From a virus, in IMG/VR virus record IMGVR_UViG_3300032182_000302, positions 1 through 20,558 of that record: a DNA stretch of 20,558 nt, one strand, 5' to 3'. A program made the translations under genes and the position numbers. Positions 1 through 20,558 of the stretch are shown piece after piece. The notes under the pieces were generated by a model. The model did no database searches and was not told where the DNA came from. It saw only the letters and a list, made by a program, of their open reading frames with translations. Position 1 is the stretch's first letter; each line of letters opens with the position of its first letter.

Positions 1-3000
1 AACCAATGTTCAAGAACACATCACCTTGGTTATCTAATCTAAGTACAGGATCAACCGTTAGACCAGCAGATAATCCTAGATCAAAATACTGCTTAGTTGT
101 ATGTAAGAATGTTCTATCTATTGCAGTATTGTCAAATGTAGAAGTTCCTTGATCAAATGTTAGTAGAGAAGCAGTAATTTCCAATTCATCAGAAGTTACG
201 GATCTAATGGTATCAATACCATAGAAATCCATCGCTGTTGTAGTTACTTCTATGGTCTTTACATTGTCATTATAGAAGAACAATGTATTTTCGTTTGCAC
301 CTGGAGAGGATTCTGGAATAATGTAAGTGTTTTGATCTACATCCTTAACTCCACCAAGAGATCCCCAGTTAGTTCCATCATATCCTTCAAACTGAATTGT
401 GGTATCACTGAACCTGATAGATCCTTTGACTGCAATACCTCTATCTGAATCAGGACCATTTGGAACAACAAGAGAACTAGCAGCATCGCAAACAATCTTT
501 TTGCCAGGATTGGGACGAATAACAAGATCGTTAATGTCTGTAGAAATTACATTGTTTGCAAATCTCAGATCGTTGTTGACAGAAAGTGATAGTTCTGATT
601 GTGGACCAACACGAATTTCACTTACATCTTCAAATGTAATTGCATCAACTGCTAGTTGAGACCATGTTAATTCTGCAGAACCATTAACAACTGAACTTGT
701 AGTATGTGTTGGTTCATTGCCACTAGATGCTGTAGTACCTGCTACAGTTACTTCATACAAGTTATTTTTATACTTGATATAATCTCCAACTTGAACTGGG
801 GTATTTGCGGTCCACTCAGTAAATGCTGGTGCTGCTGTATTAAGAGATCTAATTTTCTTAACACTCATGAACTCCAGATATGTTGGAGTTACTTTCATTG
901 TATTGATAGCATCATTATAGAACCATAATGTGTTATCGTTAGCACCTACAGTTTCTTCTGCTAAAATATAAGTATTACCATCTAGATCTCTTACACCACC
1001 AAGAGAAGACCACGAAGTTGTCGTTGAACTATAACCTTCATATTGATTAGTTTGAGTATTAAATCTAATAGATCCGTCAGTAGCAGCACTTGGACGTTGG
1101 GTTGTGGTGCCAGCAGGAATAGTAAGTGCTCCAAAACCAGTAACTTGTGTTAATCTTCCTGTAGGAGCGGACAATAATAGATCAGAAGACGCATCTGTTG
1201 AAATTACATTATCTGTAATAAACAATTTGTTGTTGACATTTAATCTGTTTAATGTCTGAACTTCTCCAGATGTAAGAACATCTCCTGTAGTATGATCTAC
1301 GGAGAACAGACCAACAGTCAAGTCATTTGTTAGAGATACATTATTTGCTCTCAGAATCAGAGTATTACTGGTGATAATTTCTGGTGTAGTAACACTTTGA
1401 GAAGCGGTAACATCAGTAACATTAATGCTTGTTCCTGTGAGTTGGTCGATTTCTCCTGTAGTTGCAACAATTTTAGTTACTGTTTGAGTTCCAGTTAATA
1501 CATCACTAGTAATAACATCAGATTCCTGAATAGTAGTTACTCTTAGTTGGAATCCAGATCCAAATACTTTAGGGTTATTTGAATCAATGCTGATTACTGC
1601 TTCGTTGCCATCTGTACCGCCAGCGTCTGGGAATAAACCATTATCAAAATAGTATAGTGATGGCGTGGAAGAAGTAACTCTCAGATCAAGGAACCCTTGT
1701 CCTGTTGTTACGCCATCTGTATATAAAGAACCAGCAAATGTTAATACAATAGCACCAGATGTAGTTGGAACTTGAGATAAAGTAATTTGTGTAGAACTAT
1801 CAACACTTTCTACTCTTGTATCAGATTCTAATTCGCCATCTCCACTATCTTTTGTTATAATCATTCCAGCAGTAATTCCTGCTGTGCTTGCAACTGTAAT
1901 TGTTGTAGAAGTATTATCTAAAGTTGTTGATACTGCTTCTACACGAGATGGTGAATTAAAACCATCAGCAAATGTACTGAGATTAAACTGTGTACCAGCT
2001 AAAGAGTTATCTGATAGATCAAATCTATATGTAGTTCCTACGTATAAAGTTAAGTTTGGAGTTAGTTGAGGACCGTTGCCATCTGGATCGATATAGAACC
2101 TAACACTAGTTGCGGAAGCAGTATCAATTGTGTATATTGGAGTTGTTGTTCCGTCCTTTACAATTGACTGTGCGCTAGTAAAAGGATTACCTTGGTCGGT
2201 TTCTACTAGAATTGATGTAATATTTCCGCCAGACTCAGTTACGGTAATTACTTCGCCAGGAGTGCTGCTAGTTACACCAGTGGTAGATAATTCAATATCA
2301 TGCGTTGGTGAGGTGCCACCAGTCAAAGTACCAGATACAGTTAGAGTTTCACCACTCTGATATCCTGTACCACCCTGATTCACCAAGACTTGTGTTACCT
2401 GTCCTAGACTATTTCTAGTTACATCTACCGTACATCCACTGCCAGTACCACCTGTTGTTGCTACATCAGTGTAGGTTGCTGCTTCATCTGATGTAAAAGT
2501 TAAATTGGGTGTTGATGTTTGTAGTGCAGGAGCACTCATAGTAATTTGTGTTCCACTGTCAACACTTAAAACAGTTGGATCAACAGGAATATTACCACTA
2601 GCGTCTTCTGTGATAACGTCCCCAACATTAATACCAGTTGTAGATGTCAATGTTACAACTGCACTTCCACTAGTCAGTGTAGCTGCAATAGGACCAGTAA
2701 CAGTTGGTGTTCTGTCTGGAGCATTGATAGTAGTTACTCCAGTAACTACTCCATCGACTTCTTTGATGCTGTCACCAGCAATGACCCAACCAGAAGCAAT
2801 TGTTTCAACAAAAGTTACATTTTGTACGTATTTTGCTGTTACGGGGATAGACTCTGGTTGTGTTAAGTCTGATGCAGAAACTGTCAATAAATCATTAACA
2901 GCATAACCATTACCAGTATTATTAACAGTAATGGTATCGACAGTTCCTAGATTATTGATAGTATATTCAAAGTCATCTGCTGGATTGCCATATGGTGGAA

Positions 3001-4960
3001 GAACATTAAGTACAATTGGACCAGCAGCAGTTGGTTGTGTTGATAGTGTAATAGTTGTAGCATCATCAACGTTAGCAACTGTTGTTCCTGCAGCAAGTAC
3101 ACCTGTACCAGAAACTTTTTCGACGATATCGTCGATATTCATTGCAGATGTGTCTGGAACAGTGACCTGGAATAAATTTTGAGTTGTAAATACGATGTTT
3201 GCTGCACCACTAACTAGAGGTGCAATATCTAAAGTAACTTGTGTTGCACTATCGATGCTTTGGATAGTTGATACTGGATCAAGAGATCCTGTATCACCTG
3301 CACTAGTAGCAGCATACATGCCGACTTGCAGTGCCGAAGTATCCGAAATAGTAAATGACTGACTACCAGTAGAAAGTGTAGTAGCATAAGGACCAGACTG
3401 TCCTGGAGCGTATGCAGAGATATTACTAACACCTTGACCTAAAGTTAAAACATCCCCTACTTGATATCCTGTTCCTTTCTGTGCTGGAGCAAAATTCTTA
3501 ATTAATCCTGGTTGTGATGTGATAGTATACTGGAATCCAGAACCAGTACCTCCACCGCCTACATCAGAATCATTTACGCCTAGTGTATCACCAGTTTGAT
3601 ATCCTGTTCCACTATCTGTGATAGTAACTGTTGTTACAACACCAGTGTATACAATTCCAGAAGTAGTATATTCAAATCCAGATCCAGCGTTGCCAACGTC
3701 TAAATTTGAAATTTGTAATACATCACCTGCTTTATATCCGCCACCATCGGCAACAAATGTGATATTTGTTACTGCTTGTCCGCTAATAGTAATATCTGCA
3801 TAAGCTTGCGATCCGTAAGATCCTACAGCGCCTGTATTGACGGTGATGTTTCCACCTGCAGGTGCCATATTTGGGTGATTGGCACAATCATATCTGATAA
3901 CGTTTGTGCCAGTTGCTGCAGTTGGTTTGATAATTAAATCTTGGAATGCTCCCGTAGTTCCTGTAAGACCCTTAGTGAAAAATTCAAACTCTGGATCGAT
4001 GCCAGAACCATCTGCCATCTGGAATGTCATTCTATGGTTAGCACCAGCGTCTGCGCCATTAGAAGGATCTAGGCTGGTATCTGACATATCAAAACGATAT
4101 GTATTACCAGCAACCATTGTTAGTAATGGTTGAGTATTACCATCAATTTGATAAATGTAGTTTGGTTCTCCAGGATTGCCTGCATTCGGATTAGGAATCG
4201 AAGTAACTACAAAAGTTTGTGTTGGTTCGTTGAATAATTGAACGAATGCATAATTACCATCAACATATCCAGTACCACCTTGGGTGATAGAACCACTAAG
4301 TGCTGCTCCACCTTGGATGTCGAAAGTTGCTTCTGCTCCAGAACCGTTACCGCCAGTCAGGGGAACATTAGTATAATTTCCTGGTACATATGCAGTACCA
4401 CCATCATCAATAGTACCATCAATTGGGTCTACTTCAAAGTTTGCTGTAGCACCATTTCCATTACCACCAAGTAGAGGAACTGATATGAAATTACCATCAT
4501 TGTATCCACTACCAGCGTTGGTAATAGATCCATCCCAAGCAGTTACTTCAATGTCAAGTGTACCAAATTGTCCGCTACCACCTACAATAGAAATACCTGT
4601 ATAACTTCCTGGATCGTAATTTGATCCTACTGAAAGAATAGTTAATCCGCTTTGAAGAAGTTTTCTCTGTTGAACGATAATATCTTGGAAAGAAGTAATA
4701 CTAGACAGTCCAATGTCTGTAATTTTTTTCCCACCAGCAGCAAATCCGAACGTAGAAATTTGTGGTCTGTAGATACCTAAATTATCTTCATTTACAAATG
4801 CTAGAGATGGAGCATTGAGTGTTCCATCTCCTAGTTTTAAGTTACCAGTAGATAGATCAGAACCACCAGAAGTAACATTAAATAACGCTGTACTAATCTC
4901 ATTAATTTTTACCCTTTGCTGTTCAAAGGTATCTGTCCTTGCGACATTAATTGCTGCCAT
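1..4960 (-). CDS. Fibre-like / gp10-region virion structural protein, C-terminus beyond left edge
   Basis: The frame is open from the ATG at 4960..4958 to the left edge: 1653 codons, no stop, so the C-terminus is missing. The start (MAAINVARTDTFEQ...) overlaps the 68-aa gene by 14 nt. Residues 1-60 (KINEIS, SGGSDLSTGNLKLGDGT, SLAFVNED) match, from memory, the N-terminus of fibre-like proteins in T4-like cyanophages. Residues about 144-243 are tandem G-x-GY repeats. Residues about 249-377 form a cupredoxin-like domain with C359, H362 and M365. More G-GY modules follow at about 397-507, then four VGM modules. A second cupredoxin-like domain (about 947-1115) is split by one of these. The C-terminal third has two long repeats with GSIRF, EGY and SLGGV motifs typical of phage fibres. 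There is no signal peptide or membrane segment. It is probably a late virion protein at the baseplate edge or a fibre. Homology to T4 gp10 is suggested by position and the KINE...LGDG resemblance only. Confidence 0.78.
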   Translation of the reverse strand, partial: MAAINVARTDTFEQQRVKINEISTALFNVTSGGSDLSTGNLKLGDGTLNAPSLAFVNEDNLGIYRPQISTFGFAAGGKKITDIGLSSITSFQDIIVQQRKLLQSGLTILSVGSNYDPGSYTGISIVGGSGQFGTLDIEVTAWDGSITNAGSGYNDGNFISVPLLGGNGNGATANFEVDPIDGTIDDGGTAYVPGNYTNVPLTGGNGSGAEATFDIQGGAALSGSITQGGTGYVDGNYAFVQLFNEPTQTFVVTSIPNPNAGNPGEPNYIYQIDGNTQPLLTMVAGNTYRFDMSDTSLDPSNGADAGANHRMTFQMADGSGIDPEFEFFTKGLTGTTGAFQDLIIKPTAATGTNVIRYDCANHPNMAPAGGNITVNTGAVGSYGSQAYADITISGQAVTNITFVADGGGYKAGDVLQISNLDVGNAGSGFEYTTSGIVYTGVVTTVTITDSGTGYQTGDTLGVNDSDVGGGGTGSGFQYTITSQPGLIKNFAPAQKGTGYQVGDVLTLGQGVSNISAYAPGQSGPYATTLSTGSQSFTISDTSALQVGMYAATSAGDTGSLDPVSTIQSIDSATQVTLDIAPLVSGAANIVFTTQNLFQVTVPDTSAMNIDDIVEKVSGTGVLAAGTTVANVDDATTITLSTQPTAAGPIVLNVLPPYGNPADDFEYTINNLGTVDTITVNNTGNGYAVNDLLTVSASDLTQPESIPVTAKYVQNVTFVETIASGWVIAGDSIKEVDGVVTGVTTINAPDRTPTVTGPIAATLTSGSAVVTLTSTTGINVGDVITEDASGNIPVDPTVLSVDSGTQITMSAPALQTSTPNLTFTSDEAATYTDVATTGGTGSGCTVDVTRNSLGQVTQVLVNQGGTGYQSGETLTVSGTLTGGTSPTHDIELSTTGVTSSTPGEVITVTESGGNITSILVETDQGNPFTSAQSIVKDGTTTPIYTIDTASATSVRFYIDPDGNGPQLTPNLTLYVGTTYRFDLSDNSLAGTQFNLSTFADGFNSPSRVEAVSTTLDNTSTTITVASTAGITAGMIITKDSGDGELESDTRVESVDSSTQITLSQVPTTSGAIVLTFAGSLYTDGVTTGQGFLDLRVTSSTPSLYYFDNGLFPDAGGTDGNEAVISIDSNNPKVFGSGFQLRVTTIQESDVITSDVLTGTQTVTKIVATTGEIDQLTGTSINVTDVTASQSVTTPEIITSNTLILRANNVSLTNDLTVGLFSVDHTTGDVLTSGEVQTLNRLNVNNKLFITDNVISTDASSDLLLSAPTGRLTQVTGFGALTIPAGTTTQRPSAATDGSIRFNTQTNQYEGYSSTTTSWSSLGGVRDLDGNTYILAEETVGANDNTLWFYNDAINTMKVTPTYLEFMSVKKIRSLNTAAPAFTEWTANTPVQVGDYIKYKNNLYEVTVAGTTASSGNEPTHTTSSVVNGSAELTWSQLAVDAITFEDVSEIRVGPQSELSLSVNNDLRFANNVISTDINDLVIRPNPGKKIVCDAASSLVVPNGPDSDRGIAVKGSIRFSDTTIQFEGYDGTNWGSLGGVKDVDQNTYIIPESSPGANENTLFFYNDNVKTIEVTTTAMDFYGIDTIRSVTSDELEITASLLTFDQGTSTFDNTAIDRTFLHTTKQYFDLGLSAGLTVDPVLRLDNQGDVFLNIG
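197..577 (-). repeat. Fibre repeat unit, second copy
   Basis: 127 residues from NNDLRFANNVISTD to GIDTIRSV. It is collinear with the first copy: GSIRFSDTTIQFEGY, GSLGGVKDVDQNTYI, GANENTLFFYND. About 88 residues of unrelated sequence separate the two, and more copies may lie beyond the left edge. Confidence 0.75.
842..1234 (-). repeat. Fibre repeat unit, first copy
   Basis: 131 residues from NNKLFITDNVISTD to VKKIRSL. It contains DGSIRFNTQTNQYEGY, SSLGGVRDLDGNTYI and GANDNTLWFYND. The pattern GSIRFN...EGY..T.W..L is common in phage fibre proteins. Confidence 0.75.
1736..1927 (-). repeat. VGM-type module, copy 4, inserted in a cupredoxin-like domain
   Basis: About 64 residues: ITVASTAGITAGMIIT ... 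TRVESVDSSTQITLS ... SGAIVLTF. It interrupts a cupredoxin-like domain between TYRFDLSDNS (before) and SLYYFDNG (after). Confidence 0.7.
2495..2680 (-). repeat. VGM-type module, copy 3 (fibre-like protein)
   Basis: About 62 residues: TLTSTTGINVGDVIT ... TVLSVDSGTQITMS ... STPNLTF. It is separated from copy 2 by about 107 residues that include a G-GY module. Confidence 0.7.
3002..3181 (-). repeat. VGM-type module, copy 2 (fibre-like protein)
   Basis: About 60 residues: FQVTVPDTSAMNIDDIV ... TTVANVDDATTITLS ... AGPIVLNV. It is diverged at the VGM position (IDD) but keeps the downstream V..V...T.ITLS pattern. Confidence 0.65.
3182..3382 (-). repeat. VGM-type module, copy 1 (fibre-like protein)
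   Basis: About 67 residues with the pattern F-x-ISDTSALQVGMY ... STIQSIDSATQVTLD ... SGAANIVF. It directly precedes copy 2. Confidence 0.7.
3440..3772 (-). repeat. Second G-GY repeat array in the fibre-like protein (three units)
   Basis: Three units share the core GGGYKAGDVLQ, GTGYQTGDTLG and GTGYQVGDVLT. The first two are followed by DVG..GSGF.YT. The unit is about 40 residues. Related single copies occur further on (NTGNGYAVNDLLTV near 2900 and GGTGYQSGETLTV near 2380). Confidence 0.75.
4232..4531 (-). repeat. Tandem G-x-GY protein repeats in the fibre-like protein (about 2.5 units)
   Basis: Three successive segments begin GSITNAGSGYNDGNF, GTIDDGGTAYVPGNY and GSITQGGTGYVDGNY. The first two continue with VPL.GGNG.GA.A.F. 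The unit is about 38-41 residues. They look like one beta-rich module duplicated in tandem and then diverged. Confidence 0.8.
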
Positions 4961-18200: not shown

Positions 18201-20558
18201 AATACAATTCAAAGATTTTATTTTCTCCATCTACATAATCTGGATAAGCAACAGGAACAGAATTTCCATCTAAGATATTGGTAATAGTTGCATACAGTGA
18301 ATCAACAGAAGAGACTACATCAGCACATTCATATGAAGGCAATAACGAATCGGGAATAATAGTATAGTTAGAGTATGGCAATAGACCAGTCCAATTTCCT
18401 GGTTTGCTAGAGTTGACAGGAGATTTTTCTACCAATCCTTTTCCTTCCGTTAAAACGGTATTCATGATAGAATAGAAAGAATCCAAAGCAGATTCTACCT
18501 GAGCGCATAATGGGAATGATGGATCAGTTGCAATAGAATTATCGAAATATGGAGCAACGTTTGTATATGTTCCTGCAGGTAAAGAGTTTCTCATAGCAAG
18601 AACCATAAGATCTCTTACAAAAGAATAACCAGCAGAGAATTTCGTAGCATCTACCCCATACTTTAAAGTTTCTGGATATGGATAGAAAGTATTCTGGTAG
18701 TAATTTTGTGCTAAGTCTACTACGTATTCATTACCACCAAAACGTAAATGGTATACTACACTATCAATATAGTCATTAACATCTTTAACTAGATCCGTCC
18801 ATGTTGTAGTAGGATAAGTAGCAGCAAACCATCCTGTCAGTTCTTCGCGAATATACTGCTTATTGCCTTCAATTAAATTCGATGCATCGTAATAAGTTCC
18901 ATTATTAATACCACTAAAGAAGAAAGTAGCACTATCGGAACTTGAGAATGATACAGGAACTGCTACAACTGATCCAGGAGGAACTTGATATTGTCCTCCT
19001 GATACAACACGACCAATTGCTGTTGGTAATGTAGTTCCTCCCGCTGGTGCAGTTCCCTGAAGGTTTGTGATGCCAACTGATGCGCCACCGCCACCTCCAG
19101 AGTTTGCTAAAGCGGCTTTGTTTAATGTGATTTCAGTATCGCTATCGATAGATACAATTTTTGTATCTGAAGAGAAAGCAGTTCCTGAACTTATATGCAT
19201 TCCTACTGCTAGATTCTTAGTATCAGAAACAGTAACTTTAAACGATCCTTGTAAGTAAGAAACATTTTCTTCTACAAAGTCCCAATTTCTAACAGAAAGA
19301 TTGACTAGATTTGTAAGATATTTTACGATACCTAAAGATTCAGTTTTATTTGTGGTAAAGTAATCATAATCATTATTATCATTAATAATATTAAGATAAC
19401 TATTAATTTTTACATTTCCACCAAATCTCAAATCATGTGAATATGCATCAACAATAAATCCAAGATCTCTTTCATAGTCGTCAGTTTTTGTACTCCAATC
19501 TAGAGTGGGATATTTTTCTTTACCATATCCAATCGATTCTGCAACAATAAACTCTTTGTTTCTTTCAACTTGGTTTGCTGCATCAATCCATCTTCCATTT
19601 CTTTGGAAAATATTTCTTACCTTCTTAATATATCTGTCATCATATTGATTATCTTTAAACTGAATATATTTGCCGTAGAATGTAACACCATCATAATCTG
19701 TCACATCACTGATAGCATTTCCAGTTTGTTTTGTATTATCACCTAATGGTGGTTTCGCAAATGTAATAGTTTGTCCTGATACAGTGTATGCAACCTCTGG
19801 TTCTTGCAATATTCCATCTAGAGTAATAATTAAATTACTTGCGCTATATGGCGTAAAGAGATTTCCCTCATCATCTTTTACTTGGAATGTTCTTGTTCCT
19901 TGCAATCTACCATCACTATCGTAATAACCATCAAAGTCTGCTGACAGTTTAACTTCAAAAGCTCTAGTCTCATTGAAATTAAATTCAGAAGTAGATGCCG
20001 AACCCAATCCTTTTATGATATTGTACTGATCTACTTTTTGAACTGTTTGTGTAATAGTTCTTCTAGTGTTTTCAACAGTAACAGTATTCTTTTCAGGATC
20101 CCACAACTGAATAACAGTAAAGTGTCCCGCACTAGGAGACTGAACTGGCATCTTGTTAGATGCTTCTGCATCAATTGCAACCTCACCAAACAGTTTAAAT
20201 CCTGCTGGGTGTGTCGTAGACTTAATTAAATCACGCCACTGTTCGATAGAAGTCTTAGATTTAATTACATAAGAATAGTCTTGATAAAAATGACTATCAA
20301 TAATTCTTTGATTGGAAACTCCCAATCTTCCTCTATCAGAAACATAGTAACCAATATTGTCATAAAAACTAGCAATTGATGGATTTAGTTCAGTAACAAA
20401 AATAGAAGTCACTGTTCCAGTAGATTTAGATACAAAACCTTTGATTTCGAGATTTTGTCTTAATGTGCCTTGAATCTTTTCTAATTTTAGTAAATTAGAT
20501 CCAGGTCTCCACTCAGAAACTTCTGCTCTACTGACTTCGACACCATTAACTATTTGTT
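15220..20558 (-). CDS. 7: Giant gp7-like baseplate wedge protein, C-terminal 1778 residues (start beyond right edge)
   Basis: The frame stays open to the right edge, so the true N-terminus is outside. A GTG at 20412 is not a convincing start because the protein reads through it (GFVSKSTGTVTSIFV). At 20197..20274 SYVIKS...W.DLIK...HPAGF parallels T4 gp7 near its C-terminus (SYYVMKIKS...W..DVIRFVHPVGF). Position next to gp8 supports gp7, the wedge initiator. In T4 little follows this motif; here about 1660 residues do. They include two 102-aa repeats with RFGGN (19276..19581, 18580..18885), two 19-aa C..V.S..DS.Y repeats, two 33-aa 'LDG.LQ' modules, one VGM module, and two 'DT..F..SG...V.Y...RG' modules, one forming the C-terminus. 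No signal peptide or membrane segment is seen in the visible part. An alternative is a fusion of gp7 with fibre-like material. Confidence 0.68.
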   Translation of the reverse strand, partial: QIVNGVEVSRAEVSEWRPGSNLLKLEKIQGTLRQNLEIKGFVSKSTGTVTSIFVTELNPSIASFYDNIGYYVSDRGRLGVSNQRIIDSHFYQDYSYVIKSKTSIEQWRDLIKSTTHPAGFKLFGEVAIDAEASNKMPVQSPSAGHFTVIQLWDPEKNTVTVENTRRTITQTVQKVDQYNIIKGLGSASTSEFNFNETRAFEVKLSADFDGYYDSDGRLQGTRTFQVKDDEGNLFTPYSASNLIITLDGILQEPEVAYTVSGQTITFAKPPLGDNTKQTGNAISDVTDYDGVTFYGKYIQFKDNQYDDRYIKKVRNIFQRNGRWIDAANQVERNKEFIVAESIGYGKEKYPTLDWSTKTDDYERDLGFIVDAYSHDLRFGGNVKINSYLNIINDNNDYDYFTTNKTESLGIVKYLTNLVNLSVRNWDFVEENVSYLQGSFKVTVSDTKNLAVGMHISSGTAFSSDTKIVSIDSDTEITLNKAALANSGGGGGASVGITNLQGTAPAGGTTLPTAIGRVVSGGQYQVPPGSVVAVPVSFSSSDSATFFFSGINNGTYYDASNLIEGNKQYIREELTGWFAATYPTTTWTDLVKDVNDYIDSVVYHLRFGGNEYVVDLAQNYYQNTFYPYPETLKYGVDATKFSAGYSFVRDLMVLAMRNSLPAGTYTNVAPYFDNSIATDPSFPLCAQVESALDSFYSIMNTVLTEGKGLVEKSPVNSSKPGNWTGLLPYSNYTIIPDSLLPSYECADVVSSVDSLYATITNILDGNSVPVAYPDYVDGENKIFELYWEDGSDVITEEDEDLFLTINAVLQKPKYREDYPAEDAYYIDRTVIPNRVVFDVAPIWDQDLGAKSIGEPTAVEKVVGVGVGNYKRLTVDKNLIDGSRGGPFLILDLEDLTVQNIEDNAYLYVFLDGVLQREGYSYDVVGPNITFKAPIKQEMKIDIRYLYGREIGQILNIYDYLPDTYYAKGSVELQTTSGAAALVQGSWAGEYSGNTLQCWQINPDGTRNIIGEVLEIVATGDVLNLDVYGMKCELTQGSPVVFAIKGHYDVNYTVPLASTGSTITYDVDDSGRLQLSDNFTPWKGSIIRKSYKNPFVSLSDNDFIRVEGESRFRRIKKLPQIVGTREERLQKGSTNSIFGTVEVETYSGVTRGEGLSVVATVENGRVVSLTWNQRSFDPLTQPTAYQYYTPPVLNFIPQDGNGGGAKAVVLVSKGQIVSVDLIEGGEGYTEAPLVRVSRRYDLKKERGVGVSLINLRMNPYVETAGMTAISRIDVLGNQVSGVNSFTSVFFDSPVDTDRVITAQIQLVEETGEDLDAGLVEHLSTVTSERDTALIDTEHEITEINVYIETPYIVNIDTQSTLTLQSSNREITNSVNYVINNSALSNVNYYEVAAYLQADADPTDTIIYIADTSKFKSNGYLLIGNEIVKYFLKFGDRFLKVKRGVNNTTAQFWAAGTYLRQIPDPVSIAYGGVTAIESQSSLVSVKGGAAVGLTERETERLIITPDVQPKTSTRVITAEIQPQLNVQSISQISADVQYKLETFAENVLSFTTTHKETLARSEVQTVHSEFTVRKESTEFLIFTPPGGVVDGYEESAFIDDPINTRLNGYVDLLDDYGVTKRDGTTIFVKNAAFATFSQYIGNYKKTNVGYVLKHFDGLFDDGFANVSGYTLADIQFYFPSLTIRDFVDRSESQYTLGGDKFNVLPPSIQSPVTTTTSSGTIPTTIVVTDTTHFPSSGYIFTESGSVVEYTGKTTTSFTGCTLYRGPNSISNGDDLIPFAIS
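15241..15399 (-). repeat. 'DT..F..SG' module, copy 2 at the C-terminus of the gp7-like protein
   Basis: TIVVTDTTHFPSSGYIF...S.VEYTGKTTTSFTG..LYRG. It ends five residues before the stop, so it is the terminal domain. Confidence 0.65.
16195..16359 (-). repeat. 'DT..F..SG' module, copy 1 in the gp7-like protein
   Basis: TIIYIADTSKFKSNGYLLIG.EIV.Y ... VKRGVNNTTA ... AGT. It is a recurrent phage virion module with a V/L-x-RG step. Confidence 0.65.
17758..17856 (-). repeat. 'LDG.LQ' module, copy 2 (33 aa) in the gp7-like protein
   Basis: YVFLDGVLQREGYSYDVVGPNITFKAP. A looser third copy with LFLTINAVLQKP lies between the two, around 18030..18170. Confidence 0.6.
18271..18327 (-). repeat. Short Cys repeat, copy 2 (19 aa) in the gp7-like protein
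   Basis: CADVVSSVDSLYATITNIL. The spacing from copy 1 is exactly 180 nt (60 codons). Confidence 0.6.
18451..18507 (-). repeat. Short Cys repeat, copy 1 (19 aa) in the gp7-like protein
   Basis: CAQVESALDSFYSIMNTVL. It matches the copy 180 nt further on, at C, V, S, DS, Y, I/T and the final L. Confidence 0.6.
18580..18885 (-). repeat. gp7-like internal repeat, copy 2 (102 aa)
   Basis: It runs from ASNLIEGNKQYIR to VLAMRNSL, with YPTTTW, DVNDYIDSVVYHL and RFGGN. It has the same length and motif order as copy 1. Confidence 0.75.
19090..19250 (-). repeat. VGM-type module in the gp7-like protein
   Basis: FKVTVSDTKNLAVGMHIS ... TKIVSIDSDTEITLNKAAL. It has the same pattern as the four copies in the fibre-like protein and is followed by a run of five glycines. 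This is the only copy I found in the gp7-like gene. Confidence 0.65.
19276..19581 (-). repeat. gp7-like internal repeat, copy 1 (102 aa)
   Basis: It runs from AANQVERNKEFIV to LSVRNWDF, with YPTLDW, DYERDLGFIVDAYSHDL and RFGGN. It pairs with the equal-length repeat at 18580..18885. Relatives of the 'RD.G.IVDA...DL..GGN' pattern are familiar from other marine phage virion proteins. Confidence 0.75.
19744..19842 (-). repeat. 'LDG.LQ' module, copy 1 (33 aa) in the gp7-like protein
   Basis: IITLDGILQEPEVAYTVSG..ITF. It is equal in length and order to the copy at 17758..17856. Confidence 0.6.

Follow-up and report, generated by a model that had tools for sequence, protein, structure and literature searches.

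The I-domain of the phage P22 coat protein provides that protein with contact surface or spacing. One published account describes this 'insertion domain', in the structural proteins of the phages P22 and CUS-3, as a six-stranded beta-barrel that folds autonomously (PMC11243222). Here we describe a cyanophage virion protein in which a small predicted barrel appears to lie inside a cupredoxin-like domain. A word search of the openly available literature found neither a phage virion protein described as having a cupredoxin domain nor an account of this insertion.

The window, by which we mean the whole stretch of DNA analysed, is a 20,558-base virus record, and its minus strand carries a block of large structural genes from P0004 to P0001. 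The block includes P0004 (PHROG 4406), a gp8-like baseplate wedge protein (Pfam Phage-Gp8), P0002 (DUF4815) and a 68-aa protein (PHROG 473). P0001 strongly matches the PHROG 6005 virion structural protein profile (E 0, 1651.9 bits); the category label of this profile, 'head and packaging', is a generic one. P0001 has its nearest named relatives among Synechococcus phages; 54 records match, and the best, ACG-2014h, shows 48% identity over 95%. Its neighbours are the same as in named cyanophages, and the gene order P0002-like, small protein, P0001-like, T4-GC_512 is common to the window, ACG-2014h and S-PM2. The parts of P0001 that concern us, together with one related part of P0004, are as follows.

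2..4960, minus strand: P0001 open reading frame, virion structural protein, 1653 aa with the C-terminus cut by the window edge (PHROG 6005, E 0)
3827..4219, minus strand: D1, the first cupredoxin-like domain, continuous, residues 248-378 (hhalign to D2; keeps C-x2-H-x2-M as CANHPNM)
3185..3382, minus strand: stand-alone sister module 1, residues 527-592 (54.8 bits)
3005..3172, minus strand: stand-alone sister module 2, residues 597-652 (43.1 bits)
2492..2689, minus strand: stand-alone sister module 3, residues 758-823 (41.7 bits)
1943..2137, minus strand: left half of D2 (TYRFDLSDNS...), residues 942-1006 (sequence, alignments, AlphaFold2)
1733..1933, minus strand: inserted barrel module, residues 1010-1076 (HMM; AlphaFold2, pLDDT about 95-98; VIA match to 8eci_1)
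1577..1729, minus strand: right half of D2 (SLYYFDNG...), presumed metal ligands lost, residues 1078-1128 (sequence, alignment)
19108..19251, minus strand: module copy in the neighbouring protein P0004, residues 436-483 (34.0 bits, E 5e-10)

Further repeated sequence is present in the same gene. More short repeats (Gly-rich, GTGYQxGD-like units) are seen as direct DNA repeat families at 4252-4532 and 3452-3745, and the translation of the C-terminal part shows a duplicated unit at 191-340 and 848-1000 (GVRDLDGNTYILAEETVGANDNTLWFYND / GVKDVDQNTYIIPESSPGANENTLFFYND).

The initial annotation had proposed two cupredoxin-like domains with a TYRFD motif, the first continuous and the second split by a repeat module, and this layout is borne out. 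TYRFD occurs at residues 287 and 977, and a profile-profile comparison of D2 with D1 by hhalign gives a probability of 98.6% (E 9e-16, 106 columns) and places most of the module in a gap. By this comparison D1 and D2 are homologous, and judged from its sequence P0001 is a virion structural protein of T4-like cyanophages with two such cupredoxin-like domains. D2 as a whole extends over about residues 942-1128 and is interrupted by a module of ~67 residues. The annotation had placed the module at 1736-1942 on the minus strand, i.e., residues 1007-1075 of the 1653-aa reading frame; the location is right and the boundary, now 1010-1076, was off by one to three residues.

The inserted part also exists on its own, as would be expected in a domain insertion, in three copies in P0001 and one in P0004. 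The profile behind these calls was built from the inserted modules of relatives, and the three stand-alone sisters, which score 41.7-54.8 bits, were not used in building it; when the rest of P0001 was shuffled 500 times, no domain scored above 6.9 bits. The inserted module itself scores 95.6 bits, although it was in the training set. By profile score, then, the inserted module is homologous to its stand-alone sisters. The name 'VGM module' used in the annotation fits less well, as VGM is literally present in only one of the four P0001 modules (residue 546) and the inserted one reads AGM.

An AlphaFold check had been suggested, with the expectation of a beta-sandwich bearing a small extra domain, and the model with its fold matches is consistent with this. 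AlphaFold2 was run on window residues 930-1140 with a 46-sequence alignment that included two orthologs without the module (L134 and L135) and a continuous domain (L030). The mean pLDDT was 90.4 and pTM 0.79, the five models ranging from 88.0 to 90.4; by part, pLDDT was 95-98 in the insert, mostly 85-97 in the flanks, 68-74 in the first 20 residues and 54-57 in the last 11. This model supersedes one from a smaller 19-sequence alignment (pLDDT 78.5, weak flanks).

Structural matches were sought with VIA-align 2 among the best 1000 chains ranked by Foldseek. The best cupredoxin match of the D2 flanks taken together (model 22..203) is nitrite reductase 2dv6_A (Z 7.0, rmsd 2.8, 90 aligned), and AcoP 7z3b_B follows with Z 5.4 and 87 aligned. 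Other cupredoxins, 6tfd and laccases, align over 80-90 residues, the laccases and AcoP having Z 4.9-5.8. Since the cupredoxins cover model 22 to 203 with about 90 residues aligned, the insert is skipped. VIA and hhalign thus point to flanking halves that make one known fold, which is a moderate test given a predicted model and middling Z values, and the same reservation applies to the cupredoxin beta-sandwich predicted for D2. The insert alone (model 76..147) matches 8eci_1 best (Z 8.4, rmsd 1.8, 67 aligned), followed by the Mystique tail tube protein (7.9), the head-to-tail protein of FCWL1 (6.8) and P22 coat (5.6). Ubiquitin-activating enzymes match the barrel too (Z 5.0-6.7), and the barrel shape would therefore be a common one; these fold matches are middling, and Z <8 can reflect a common arrangement. 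In the viral structure library the best match was the ACG-2014e ortholog (TM 0.78 on query). The model supports the view of the module as a unit, predicted with confidence, that occupies one loop of the cupredoxin-like domain.

Several other searches gave nothing comparable. Foldseek alone found no PDB match at E <= 0.001, searching solved structures by sequence, with P0001 or its alignment, returned nothing useful, and in Pfam and NCBIfam zero families were above the cut-off for P0001 or its domains. The Pfam cupredoxin models stay below their gathering cut-offs, with Cu-oxidase at 12.8 bits against 21 for D1 and Copper-bind at 15.9 against 21.2 for the continuous relative L030.

The module is widespread at this position. 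D2 matches 48 phage records, and in 46 of these the match spans at least 80% of the domain; the remaining two are S-WAM2 and its RefSeq copy. An alignment of 19 named phages shows the module in the same position in 17; the other two are S-WAM2, where it is missing, and P-HM1, whose domain is continuous and of unsure orthology. Adding metagenomic relatives gave 105 records with and three without the module among 108 (duplicates removed by a hand-made list). The final census, which followed two extra scans using only the sequence behind the insert, comprises 127 distinct D2 sequences. The module is inserted at one common point in 124 of them, a figure to be read knowing that the searches take the best 80 loci by similarity, so that distant orthologs without the insert may be under-sampled. 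Inserted modules were called by profile positions, and rows with a C-half score <20 bits or no NNP-like signature behind were left out. S-PM2 is outside the census by the NNP-like signature though it carries the insert, as are L029 and L030, which are not orthologs, and L028, which is cut short.

The three empty orthologs, S-WAM2 and its metagenomic relatives L134 and L135, form one clade. In an unrooted tree of the region behind D2 with 53 representatives, one branch separates these three from the other 50 (100/100), and a single presence/absence change is required in 200/200 bootstrap trees. This pattern fits one gain or one loss alike. In the PHROG 6005 profile the module lies at 722-792, right behind the part (655-721) that is matched by the best stretch of L134.

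We consider it very probable that these observations reflect an old insertion, in which a phage barrel of a common type came to lie between two strands of D2 in a long modular virion protein, followed by vertical inheritance. The module, a small beta-barrel of a type often seen in phage structural proteins, would have lodged between two D2 strands, presumably, by analogy with plastocyanin, where strand 4 connects to strand 5, and would then have been passed on vertically across the T4-like cyanophage family. The barrel may project as a side domain and, as we infer from the P22 coat I-domain, would offer the structural protein an extra contact surface or a spacer. The entry of the phage barrel into a loop of this unrelated sandwich would then predate the divergence of the inserted orthologs sampled here, which come from named phages of many genera and from metagenomes, and the barrel would have stayed in place since.

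Within this reading of an old insertion there is the question of which state came first. It is a tentative possibility that the S-WAM2 clade, being empty, shows the ancestral condition and that the module was gained on the branch to all other orthologs. This would agree with the single change in the tree and with the midpoint root, which falls on that branch, and continuous domains are the rule elsewhere, in D1, in L029 and L030 and in the Eurybiavirus proteins (P-HM1, P-HM2 and MED4-213). However, the tree carries no root, the branch to S-WAM2 is a long one (1.44), and the single continuous domain of the Eurybiavirus proteins fits both the D1 and the D2-left profiles and is therefore unable to root it. 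On visual inspection, S-WAM2 retains a YAPS-V stretch that resembles the left junction of the inserted forms and is without the EYTxG stretch that continuous and inserted forms have in common behind the gap. These two details hint at a later deletion, and loss may be slightly favoured.

A different explanation would be that the module is an integral part of a larger fold and that D1 is a shortened form of it. Almost every ortholog has kept the module, and the spacing of the D2 halves is nearly constant; the initial annotation had itself held that an insert shared by all homologs would speak against its proposal. Among the orthologs this is almost the case, but a clade lacking the module was found when such homologs were sought, and the three empty orthologs, D1 and the other continuous domains (L029 and L030) show the sandwich without it. 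Moreover, the module occurs alone three times in P0001 and once in P0004 and matches separate domains of other phages, and without it the D2 halves match known cupredoxins. An integral fold is thus improbable.

The annotation was right that the module sits in the loop of a predicted folded domain, but not that it is a recent arrival. The window's inserted module has 37-43% identity to the four other modules of the window (the three sisters and the P0004 copy) versus a median of 56% to the 123 inserted modules elsewhere, and its nearest row in a tree of 142 modules is an inserted module (97*). Because that tree has few columns and needs 12 label changes, we used it only for the window's modules and for one odd clade. 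Across proteins, an inserted module is never >59% identical to a stand-alone module of the same protein (loci retrieved twice were left in for these counts). DNA similarity between the modules of the P0001 gene is limited to one ungapped 43-nt family at 63-77%, the direct repeats being short and diverged; the G+C of the insert, 34.3%, is close to the 36.4% of the left flank and the 38.6% of the gene. Neither absence from near relatives nor a near-identical donor copy, either of which would mark a recent insertion, was found. The odd clade (L096, L098, L102, L107, L109 and L129) has its stand-alone module 2 among the inserted modules (96*), as if copied or converted between positions, which suggests that exchange between positions may occur at times. 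That a sister copy moved into D2 in the window's own lineage, as this clade and the presence of sisters in the same protein might suggest, is very improbable, and we reject it in view of the census, the one-change tree and the low identity to the sisters.

The cupredoxin-like domains also raise the question of metal binding. A His together with a Cys-x2-His-x2-Met set is a type 1 copper ligand pattern. In the window, the sequence of D1 has both parts of it (NHRMTF and CANHPNM), and C-x2-H-x2-M is kept in 46 of 47 distinct D1 sequences, a count that rests on CxxHxxM only because the motif used for the first His was too narrow. D1 is thus a possible copper site in a virion protein. The pattern in D2 is more complicated. 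By ad hoc motif tests that miss some variants, 33 of the 124 inserted sequences keep the first His and C-x2-H-x2-M, 43 have His and C...H-x2-E (e.g., L115:7992-8633 and L117:2691-3335), six have C-x3..9-H-x2-M (five of these with His), six have a Cys with other spacing and 36 have no Cys. The Cys...His-x2-Glu group would represent a systematic change of the presumed fourth ligand. The window's D2 (SLYYFDNG...DAGG) belongs to the last group and has no His either; the three empty D2 domains likewise have neither Cys nor His. As it is without the ligand residues kept by many relatives, the window's D2 is most likely purely structural. A wider reading, which we regard as doubtful, would make these cyanophage virion proteins metal proteins, with type 1 copper-like sites on the particle and with the inserted barrel covering or tuning the D2 site; if so, in the window only D1 could carry a site.

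In comparison with known systems, cupredoxins are the closest to the host domain: the D2 halves align together with the N-terminal part of Hyphomicrobium nitrite reductase (2dv6) and with AcoP (7z3b), and D1 and many D2 relatives keep CxxHxxM. However, P0001 is a virion protein, the Pfam cupredoxin models score below cut-off and the window's D2 is without the ligand set. For the inserted barrel, the best fold match, 8eci_1 of Arthrobacter phage Bridgette, has 30% identity, but it is part of a 124-residue chain and not within a cupredoxin. The tail tube protein of Acinetobacter phage Mystique (9n71_A, residues 103-177) matches the insert over 67 aligned residues within a 264-residue protein, which is another host protein; a word search of the openly available literature found no paper on it (9n71). 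Residues 221-350 of P22 coat (8i1v_A) align to the insert region over 72 residues, but the host fold of the I-domain is the HK97 coat protein and not a cupredoxin, and the likeness, at a middling Z, is one of fold. With stand-alone copies of the module in P0001 itself and a clade of orthologs that lack it, what the insert does to the fold and to the presumed metal ligands is open to direct comparison. P0001 would be a good example, in marine cyanobacterial viruses, of phage structural proteins built from parts.
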